Shown: positions 18,773-20,157 of the stretch, piece by piece
How the letters are laid out: every line of letters begins with the position of its first letter
Numbering within the stretch: the stretch's first letter is position 1
From: Pseudomonas putida
Lineage (GTDB): Bacteria; Pseudomonadota; Gammaproteobacteria; Pseudomonadales; Pseudomonadaceae
Length of the DNA stretch: 64,000 nt
Direction: 5' to 3'
NCBI RefSeq assembly: GCF_025905425.1
Contig: NZ_CP109603.1
Span: 4,604,501-4,668,500 of the forward strand
Position numbers and translations under genes: made by a program
Notes under the pieces: model-generated
What the model saw: only the letters and a program-made list of their open reading frames with translations
Told to the model about the DNA's origin: nothing
Databases searched by the model: none

Positions 18773-18802
18773 AAAAACCCCGGACGAGTTCCGGGGTTTT
18801 TT
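18773..18802 (+). terminator. Rho-independent terminator after accBC
   Basis: Stem AAAAACCCCGGA / TTCCGGGGTTTTTT with loop CGAG, followed by a T run. It lies 20 bases after the accC stop. Confidence 0.93.
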
Positions 18803-18832
18803 ATTGGCTGGGATACCGTGCATGGCACCGGC

Positions 18833-18861
18833 TTCGCCGGTGTTCGCGGGGCGAGCCCGCT
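18833..18861. repeat. Left half of a REP interrupted by the IS110 element
   Basis: TTCGCGGGGCGAGCCCGCT is cut at 18861 where the element begins. The missing CCCACA half and the inverted partner REP are found beyond the other end, at 20105-20157. Confidence 0.85.
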
Positions 18862-18879
18862 TGTGTCTTGGAGAGGGAA

Positions 18880-18885
18880 TAGAAT
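18880..18885 (+). promoter_or_regulatory. Candidate -10 box completed by a -35 only in the circular form
   Basis: TAGAAT (18880-18885) is one base from TATAAT. In the integrated copy the hexamer 17 bases upstream is CCGCTT. If the element circularises, bases 20100-20104 plus 18862 make TTGCTT at exactly 17 bases spacing. A start near 18892 would begin just before the first bridge-RNA hairpin. Confidence 0.5.
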
Positions 18886-18897
18886 CTGAAGTGAGAG

Positions 18898-19039
18898 CGG
18901 TGAATGGCAAGCTGATAGCCCGAGGTGCCCAGAGCACGTGTGGGAGCAAAAGCTGCCATTCACCGTTCCACTTTGGCGAGAGCCCGAACAGTTGGATGAG
19001 GGGCGTAATCTCGAATCACAAGCGTGGGCCAAGCCAAAG
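18898..19039 (+). ncRNA. Predicted IS110 bridge RNA (target loop and donor loop)
   Basis: Two stem-loops lie in the leader. Target loop: perfect 12-bp stem CGGTGAATGGCA (18898-18909) / TGCCATTCACCG (18954-18965). Its loop holds AGCCCG (18917-18922), identical to the left target next to the core CT, and TGTGGGAGC (18939-18947), the exact reverse complement of the right target GCTCCCACA (20102-20110). Donor loop: stem CTTTGGC (18971-18977) / GCCAAAG (19033-19039) plus GCCC (18982-18985) / GGGC (19026-19029). Its loop holds ACAGTTG (18988-18994), identical to the right end (20096-20102), and CACAAGC (19017-19023), reverse complement of GCTTGTG across the left end. The order left-target, right-target, left-donor, right-donor guide matches the published IS621 layout. 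RNA ends are estimated. Confidence 0.82.
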
Positions 19040-19073
19040 CGCTCTCACTCCTTGAGTTTAAGAGGGTTTGGCC

Positions 19074-20009
19074 ATGTCTTCCTCTGTCGGCATCGATGTT
19101 TCCAGTGCCACACTTGCTGTTCACATCCGTCCTGAGGGGGTGAACTTCAGTGTTTCCAATGACTTGAAGGGATTCCAACTGCTCGTCGAAAAGCTTGGCG
19201 AGTATGCAATTTCAATGGTCTTGCTCGAAGCTACCGGTGGCTACGAGTGCAATGTCCTCAAAGCGCTGCAGGATGCCGATTTTCCGGTTTGCCGGATCAA
19301 TCCCAGTCGTGCCCGGGACTTTGCCAAGTCGATGGGTAAACGCGCCAAGACCGATCCCATTGACGCAGCTGTTTTGGCTCACCTGGCTGAAGTTATGCCC
19401 CCACGGCCTTGCCAGGTGATGACACCCGAGCGGGCTTTGCTGCGCGAACTGCTTATGCAGCGGGATCGCTTCGTCCAACAGCGCGACGATGACAAGCGGC
19501 GCCTGAAGCAGGCGCGGGCTCCCAGTGTTTGTTTGCGGTTGGAACAACACATCGCCTATCTGAAGGGTGAAATTCGAGCGCTGGAACAAGAGATCGCACA
19601 GCAGGCAGCAGCTTTGCCTGATGATCGGGTTAAACAGCTCACTCAAGTCAAAGGAATTGGTCTGATTACTGCCGGAAAGCTGATGGCCTTGCTGCCAGAG
19701 CTGGGCCAGGTGGATAAGAAGGAAATTGCCGCCTTGGTCGGTGTTGCGCCGTTCAACCAGGACAGCGGCAAGCAGTCGGGCAAGCGTTCAATCTGGGGGG
19801 GACGCTCACAAGTCAGGCGGGCGCTCTATATGGCCTGCTGGGTGGTGATACGGCACAACAAGGACTTCTGCGAGCGCTACAAAGCACTGCGAGCCCAGGG
19901 GAAGTGCGCGAAAGTATCGGTGGTGGCGTGTATGCGAGTATTGATAGTGAGGCTAAATGCGATGCTCAAGACCGGAACGCCCTGGAAGGAGCAAATAGCT
20001 CATTCGTAG
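19074..20009 (+). CDS. IS110-family DEDD recombinase (transposase)
   Basis: 311-residue RNA-guided recombinase by family. N-terminal RuvC-like DEDD domain: Asp8 (VGIDVSS), Glu52 (LLEATGGYE), Asp94 and Asp97 (AKTDPIDAAVLA). A coiled region sits at about 130-180. The C-terminal Tnp domain has QVKGIGLITAGKLMALLPE, then VAPFNQDSGKQSGKRS with the candidate catalytic Ser231. ATG 19074 follows AGAGGGTTTGGCC; a TTG two codons upstream is not preferred. The stop codon TAG lies inside the first arm of a REP-like hairpin. All catalytic residues are present, so the element may be active. Confidence 0.93.
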   Translation: MSSSVGIDVSSATLAVHIRPEGVNFSVSNDLKGFQLLVEKLGEYAISMVLLEATGGYECNVLKALQDADFPVCRINPSRARDFAKSMGKRAKTDPIDAAVLAHLAEVMPPRPCQVMTPERALLRELLMQRDRFVQQRDDDKRRLKQARAPSVCLRLEQHIAYLKGEIRALEQEIAQQAAALPDDRVKQLTQVKGIGLITAGKLMALLPELGQVDKKEIAALVGVAPFNQDSGKQSGKRSIWGGRSQVRRALYMACWVVIRHNKDFCERYKALRAQGKCAKVSVVACMRVLIVRLNAMLKTGTPWKEQIAHS

Positions 20010-20089
20010 GAGCAAGCCTTGCTGGCGATGCCCGGCACAGCCGGGCCTGGGGCGCTACGCGCCCCATCGCCGGCAAGGCCAGCTTCCAC
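20006..20089. repeat. REP-like inverted pair inside the IS right end, overlapping the recombinase stop codon
   Basis: Arms 20006-20030 and 20065-20089 pair at 20 of 25 positions and enclose two smaller hairpins (CCCGGC/GCCGGG and GGGGCG/CGCCCC). The arms are of a third REP type (GGCGATG end) unlike the target REP. The TAG stop (20007-20009) is part of the first arm. Confidence 0.8.
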
Positions 20090-20101
20090 AAGAAGACAGT
20101 T

Positions 20102-20157
20102 GCTCCCACATCTGCTTCGGGCCCGAAACAAATGTGGGAGCGGGCTTGCCCCGCGAA
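20102..20157. repeat. Right half of the interrupted REP and its intact inverted partner
   Basis: GCTCCCACA (20102-20110) completes the REP cut at 18861. TGTGGGAGCGGGCTTGCCCC then GCGAA (20133-20157) is the partner REP. About 22 bases separate them. Confidence 0.85.

Follow-up and report, generated by a model that had tools for sequence, protein, structure and literature searches.

The window, a 64,000-nucleotide stretch of the Pseudomonas putida genome, carries an IS110-group insertion sequence that interrupts a REP repeat (Table 1). We set its ends by the alignment-exact termini of 27 full copies in the same genome (one contig of 6.14 Mb), which are 99–100% identical to one another and start and stop at identical bases. 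The earlier note on this DNA had drawn the element from 18862 to 20110; the start stands, and the end moves back to 20104. The left end measures 212 nt (18862–19073) and holds the predicted guide RNA, and the right end measures 95 nt. In the IS110 group a long non-coding left end precedes the gene, as here; the IS1111-group arrangement, with the guide RNA downstream of tnp, is not what we found, as the predicted guide RNA lies upstream of the recombinase gene. The closest named relatives belong to Pseudomonas, among the best 80 of 486 matches in named genomes, and a plasmid search returned 127 records with relatives, all of them below 60% identity.

Table 1 Features of the element and its insertion site, in window coordinates.
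Feature	Position	Strand	Remark
Left target (LT) AGCCCG, end of interrupted REP	18854..18859	+	AGCCCG in 26/27 copies, AACCCG in 1
Core CT, left	18860..18861	+	
IS110-group insertion sequence	18862..20104	+	1,243 bp; 27 full-length copies with the same ends
-10-like TAGAAT in left end	18880..18885	+	17 bp from the TTGCTT that arises at the circle junction
Predicted bridge RNA, outer stem to outer stem	18892..19047	+	
Target-binding hairpin (TBL)	18899..18964	+	Helix 2: 6 pairs changed on both sides
Left target guide AGCCCG	18917..18922	+	
Right target guide TGTGGGAG	18939..18946	+	Pairs with CT core and CCCACA
TBL handshake guide CA, complement of donor TG	18947..18948	+	From sequence; scheme from PMC11208158
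Donor-binding hairpin (DBL)	18971..19039	+	
Left donor guide ACAGTTG, identical to right end	18988..18994	+	
Right donor guide CACAAG, complement of core CT and TGTG	19017..19022	+	
DBL handshake guide CG, complement of target CG adjoining core	19023..19024	+	
DEDD/Ser recombinase, 311 aa	19074..20009	+	From ATG; TTG start at 19068 possible
Right end, internal inverted REP-like pair (by eye), last letters GACAGTTG	20010..20102	+	
Left donor ACAGTTG (right end of element)	20096..20102	+	
Core CT, right	20103..20104	+	
Right target (RT) CCCACA	20105..20110	+	CCCACA in 26/27 copies, CCCACC in 1

The recombinase matched the Pfam families DEDD_Tnp_IS110 and Transposase_20, both above their curated cut-offs, and thereby has the two parts by which the IS110 family is recognized, a DEDD RuvC-like domain and a Transposase_20 domain with a conserved serine. 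The residues that had been called intact are so: D8, E52, D94, D97 and S231 do not vary in an alignment of 12 relatives. When the PDB was searched, only two sequences matched the recombinase, ISCro4 (E 9e-30), the best match and one compared at the protein level only, and IS621 (E 1e-27).

The right end of the window's element contains, by eye, a REP-like inverted pair at 20010–20090. Right-end length varies in relatives (G, genomes; L, loci), from about 20 nt in G010, G262 and G156 to longer in G219, G158 and G175, and the right ends of G127 and G117 contain a full REP holding the target word. Two solo right ends without an element body were seen in the window's own genome (L028, 1501–1556; L029, 1501–1560); they are 87–91% identical to the last 56–59 bases of the element, continue into CCCAC and may be deletion scars between REP-like stretches of flank and right end. 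Genome G188 also holds a second, more distant IS110 type (L091–L096), the copies of which share flanking repeats; five of these six loci carry an extra ~96 nt after CTCCGGC, and L091 is without it.

Insertion into REP repeats

Exact flanks of AGCCCG-CT-CCCACA surround 25 of the 27 copies, the exceptions having AACCCG (L020) or CCCACC (L014), which bears out the REP target proposed for this element. With 732 exact AGCCCGCTCCCAC words in the same genome (G000), only a few percent of the sites are occupied. A search of relatives with the joined flanks did not find the exact unoccupied site, and most relatives matched on the accC side only. In G007 (L265) both sides of the same neighbourhood are present, the accC side and the downstream regulator, with no element between them; the interval holds an inverted pair of two uninterrupted REPs, one with AAGCCCGCTCCCACA, in a different arrangement. 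A neighbourhood without the element therefore exists, but not the exact site.

Flanks of this kind would also be expected if the recombinase protein itself recognized the REP hairpin and the leader were a folded 5′ untranslated region that regulates translation, as in ISPpu9, the 244-nt 5′ untranslated region of which is reported to regulate tnp (PMC8450116). By eye, a REP-like CGGG stretch lies just left of the target in 25 of the 27 copies, and 99 of the 114 REP-like CTCCCAC sites (defined by pattern in a 794-kb sample of the host genome) already carry AGCCCG. Guide and REP are for this reason inseparable by flanks within the window's own genome, although two copies (L014 and L025) fit the guide with no CGGG part of the REP just upstream, again by eye. 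As guide and common REP are alike here, we turned to relatives.

A predicted bridge RNA in the leader

All four guide segments that the earlier note had read in the leader are present where it placed them, in the order and strand sense that it gave, with its right-guide segment TGTGGGAGC at 18939–18947 and CACAAGC at 19017–19023. Their tie to the CT core also holds, as the cores at 18860–18861 and 20103–20104 adjoin the targets and the donor, and in both loops the left guide is identical and the right guide complementary around CT, which is the IS621 type of organization. The matched target for these guides is AGCCCGCTCCCACA. The left guide matches over six letters; the guide letter T that precedes them fits just 2 of the 27 copies.

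In the computed fold of the leader, two hairpins sit on an outer stem (−77.1 kcal/mol, z −4.7; none of 200 shuffles was equally stable), in agreement with the two hairpins first proposed, and the same pair on an outer stem recurs in an alignment of 15 same-genus leader types. Folding related leaders had been suggested as a check, and it returned the same two hairpins with compensatory changes: in alignment A4, with 14 distinct rows, 10 of 43 pairs are altered on both sides, compared with 3.7 in shuffles, 98.2% of cells pair, and sliding the partners left 0–2 both-side changes. Further pair types in A4 numbered 18, no higher than in shuffles (19.5). An origin of the guide matches by chance, or by capture of REP-derived sequence into the leader, seems to us vanishingly improbable. 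The letters AGCCCG alone turned up in 10,262 of 100,000 dinucleotide-preserving shuffles of the leader, but two or more guides did so in 435 and all four in order in none; the compensatory pairs also speak against it, and this reading is already contradicted because guides and flanks co-vary, as described below.

Run over the window's own genome, covariance model R1 gave 54 matches, of which 27 are sense, one per element, and 27 are weak and on the opposite strand (E 0.117–0.381). A covariance-model search of this genome, in which 150 of 2,125 first-look candidates were scored, found no stand-alone bridge RNA. Second bridge-RNA matches were seen in three related loci (L145, 1751–1903, minus strand; L163, 802–956, minus strand; L137, 3546–3699, plus strand) and probably belong to further elements; their target-loop letters are unlike those of the first match in L145 and L163 and nearly the same in L137. 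In the rows of alignment A5, viewed by eye, the left target guide of many distant relatives (L129–L192) seems to continue across the core with the letters CT. Rows L113–L128, the Pseudomonas and Luteimonas rows compared, have other letters there, and to judge from them the left guide of this clade may no longer pair with the core.

Neither strand of the integrated copy showed a consensus promoter when 18800–19200 was scanned. The best site in integrated copies is CCGCTT-17-TAGAAT, with a score of 2.5, in 26 of 27, and another site, with a score of 3.1, in the remaining one. Joining the right end to the left end produces a promoter-like TTGCTT-17-TAGAAT, which scores 8.7 in the window's type. 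The hexamer weights behind these scores are taken from background knowledge. The form TTGCTT-17-TAnnnT occurs at the circle junction in 14 of 15 types, and T19, A20 and T24 of the left end are invariant in all 15; the exception is G018, with GTTGGCT at the junction and GCT common to both ends.

The opposite strand of the leader may contribute an RNA of its own. The Rfam family sX15, a small RNA of Xanthomonadaceae, matches the full leader on the minus strand (18885–19049, E 1.2e-6), at 45 bits and thus below the Rfam gathering cut-off of 55, and likewise matches five of nine related loci scanned (L119, L123, L124, L126 and L127). An antisense leader RNA similar to Asr9 or sX15 could pair with the guides and control the amount of free bridge RNA, a tentative proposal that we hold to be possible rather than probable and that would add to a bridge RNA, not replace it. 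ISPpu9 is reported to make a very stable antisense RNA in its leader (PMC8450116), but one reported to raise, not lower, tnp translation; the lack of a consensus promoter on either strand in the scan above also counts against an antisense RNA here. Within the sX15 consensus lies CAaCuGUUCgg, which is almost complementary to the region of the left donor guide. Other Rfam matches near the element (WT1-AS_4, WLE3, Pseudomon-groES, MIR9772 and PsrR1) were below their gathering scores, and we took them as chance. On the basis of these alignments, sX15 may itself be an RNA antisense to a bridge RNA of IS110, comparable to Asr9 in ISPpu9. Titles and abstract openings, with few subscription journals and no supplements among them, yielded no paper on sX15 as antisense to IS110 or on any other placing of it; this Xanthomonas small RNA would gain a place as an anti-bridge RNA, should it prove to be one.

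Co-variation of guides with flanks and host repeats

Relatives came from 298 genomes of the genus (25 with a match, own genome included), 369 genomes of the class (11 with a match, own genome included) and named genomes, where the best 80 of 486 were confirmed. A leader covariance model gave 88 matches over 90 loci, made up of L099–L108 from the class scan and the best 80 of 486; 73 of these 90 loci have the bridge-RNA match immediately before the recombinase gene, on the same strand, and in the other 17 no match was in place. We set the ends of relatives from the donor side only, by locating the left donor guide in the right end and by the conserved start of the left end. Rows were dropped if the end was not found, if the match was a weak antisense one or if an anchor was missing (42 of 88), leaving 46 rows, 43 of them distinct.

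Across the 43 distinct relatives, the right guide agrees with its flank at 4.86 of 6 letters, compared with 1.96 ± 0.18 when permuted (maximum 2.60 of 5,000), and the left guide, with its register free, at 4.77 of 6, compared with 3.69 ± 0.10 (maximum 4.05). These statistics ignore relatedness, as no tree model was used, and sets with one row per distinct guide agree with them (right, 4.75 versus 1.66, n = 24; left, 4.81 versus 3.68, n = 37). Guides and flanks thus co-vary, as in an IS621-type bridge-RNA recombinase, and the outcome on which the earlier note had staked its reading went in favour of that reading. For the right target, co-variation upholds letters 1–5, which agree in 19–23 of 24 (one row per guide), but not the sixth (8 of 24).

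Flank letters follow guide letters across relatives with quite different targets, which argues against a recombinase that reads the REP by itself; in G018 the guide is ATTCG, and the host has 134 AATTCGCTCCCAC words and no AGCCCGCTCCCAC. Recognition of the REP hairpin by the protein is in our judgement very unlikely, and the bridge-RNA mechanism, which for the window's element is read from sequence, is very probably right.

In the IS621 structure, each right guide is followed by two letters that may base-pair with the partner DNA once strands have been exchanged; the first of the two has been reported to co-vary (PMC11208158). Of the 43 relatives, 37 have a first DBL handshake letter that pairs with the target, where permutation gives 20.0 on average and never as many as 37 in 20,000 trials, and 18 have a second letter that pairs, against an average of 9.5 and with 16 of the 20,000 permutations reaching that count; these counts keep a few rows whose letters look misplaced, such as L126, L162, L180 and L191. 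Target AG meets handshake CT in L127, and target TG meets CA in L123. Misfits occur within the genus: G158, G165, G188b and G161 keep C against a target C. Guide and flank also disagree in places. G289 has guide AGCCCG, and its two full left flanks read AACCCG, giving a G-T pair, with two more cut by contig ends; in G165 the guide ends in CCCG and all three left flanks in CCCC; and in G188b the one flank is one C short of the guide GCCCC. At L064 (G262) the right flank is CCCACAG, and a second ACAGTTGCT lies just downstream.

We counted exact occurrences of six target words in 15 host genomes. The words were picked from the elements' own targets, so the agreement that follows is a fit and not a blind test: the target guide fits the commonest tested word of its host in 12 of 15 cases, 9 exactly and 3 with a wobble. 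Guide AGCCCG accompanies the 732 AGCCCGCTCCCAC words of the window's own genome, and guide GCCCG accompanies AGCCCGCTCCCAC counts of 307 (G219), 221 (G121), 408 (G179) and 658 (G046), in each case the top of the six words. Guide AGTCCG, with one U-G wobble, is found with 181 (G010), 192 (G262) and 391 (G156) of the same word. Where the guide is GCCCC, AGCCCCCTCCCAC prevails over AGCCCGCTCCCAC, by 1,126 to 11 in G188 and by 521 to 56 in G158, in which three of four left flanks are cut by contig ends; with GCCG and CCTAC in G127, GCCGCTCCTACA does so by 728 to 24. The AATTCG word of G018 occurs in no other of the 15 genomes. Among the misfits, G165 has guide GCCCG in a host with 343 AGCCCCCTCCCAC against 18, its three insertions all lying in CCCC, and G289 has guide AGCCCG in a host with 211 GCCGCTCCTACA, 77 AACCCG and 15 AGCCCG words. 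G161 counts on neither side, its own target word occurring once in its host.

These counts incline us, by a small degree, to the view that this REP-dwelling IS110 lineage of Pseudomonas re-programs itself in nature, its target guide tracking the dominant REP family of the host species, with REPs and guides evolving together. If so, G165 would represent a stage at which the guide has yet to be rewritten. We found no published account of host-tracking guides in Pseudomonas among titles and abstract openings that included few subscription journals and no supplements.

Proposed mechanism and comparison with known systems

The explanation that best accounts for the whole, and about which we have little doubt, is an RNA-guided, REP-directed IS110 element with a predicted bridge RNA. 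As its sequence suggests, and as reported for the same step of IS621, circularization of the excised element would bring its two ends together into the promoter-like TTGCTT-17-TAGAAT, and transcription from there would yield a bridge RNA of some 155 nt with its 5′ end just after the −10 element. The first hairpin would read both strands of the target AGCCCG-CT-CCCACA with its two guides, and the second would read the circle junction ACAGTTG-CT-TGTG. By analogy with IS621, for which these steps are known, a tetramer of the DEDD/Ser recombinase would hold both DNAs on the RNA, the serine would cut beside the CT core and the strands would be exchanged, helped by the handshake guides CA and CG as they fit their new partners. 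The element would in this way enter the REP repeat always at the same point and in one direction.

The novelty attributed to this element was rated too high. Bridge RNAs are general in IS110, with motifs reported for many natural guides, and guides predicted for ISPpu10 and ISPa11 appear in Extended Data Fig. 10 of Durrant et al. (2024; PMC11208160); both elements are known REP inserters (PMC1525189), and IS621 itself targets REPs. Instances of natural reprogramming have also been reported (PMC11187229). With IS110 bridge RNAs, a predicted ISPpu10 bridge RNA and natural reprogramming already known, host-tracking guides would be the most interesting extension. The analysis offers independent computational confirmation of the bridge-RNA scheme of IS110 in a natural element that has reached the high number of 27 copies, with the ends of relatives set without the target guides, and the natural series of guides with matching targets (AGCCCG, AATTCG, GCCCC and GCCG with CCTACA) would be useful for learning which mismatches and handshake misfits are tolerated.

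IS621 of Escherichia coli shares with the window's element a leader bridge RNA with TBL and DBL, the order and strands of the guides, the CT core, a DEDD and Ser recombinase, a REP target and a promoter rebuilt at the circle junction (PMC11208160, PMC11208158); rebuilding of a promoter by the circle is reported for IS110 generally (PMC11208160). IS621 is also reported to tolerate a non-canonical G-T pair in its left target guide, as would be needed in G289 (PMC11208160, PMC11208158). The targets differ, AGCCCG-CT-CCCACA here and ATCAGGC-CT-AC for IS621 in E. coli (PMC11208160), and so do the left-guide letters opposite the core, which are AG, not CT, here, whereas by our reading of the published numbering the left target guide of IS621 pairs through the core (PMC11208158).

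ISPpu9 and ISPpu10 of P. putida KT2440 share the IS110 family, REP insertion (7 of 7 copies each) and a 2-bp end repeat, as described in PMC1525189. The window's element could be a close relative or isoform of these two, which we know by their descriptions, and the AG repeat of ISPpu9 may be the same core on the other strand. ISPa11, of the IS1111 group, shares the REP target, and IS1111-group elements share a guide RNA (seekRNA). In that group the guide RNA is usually downstream of tnp, unlike its upstream place here, and 7–17-bp subterminal inverted repeats and a reversed guide order are described (PMC11187229).
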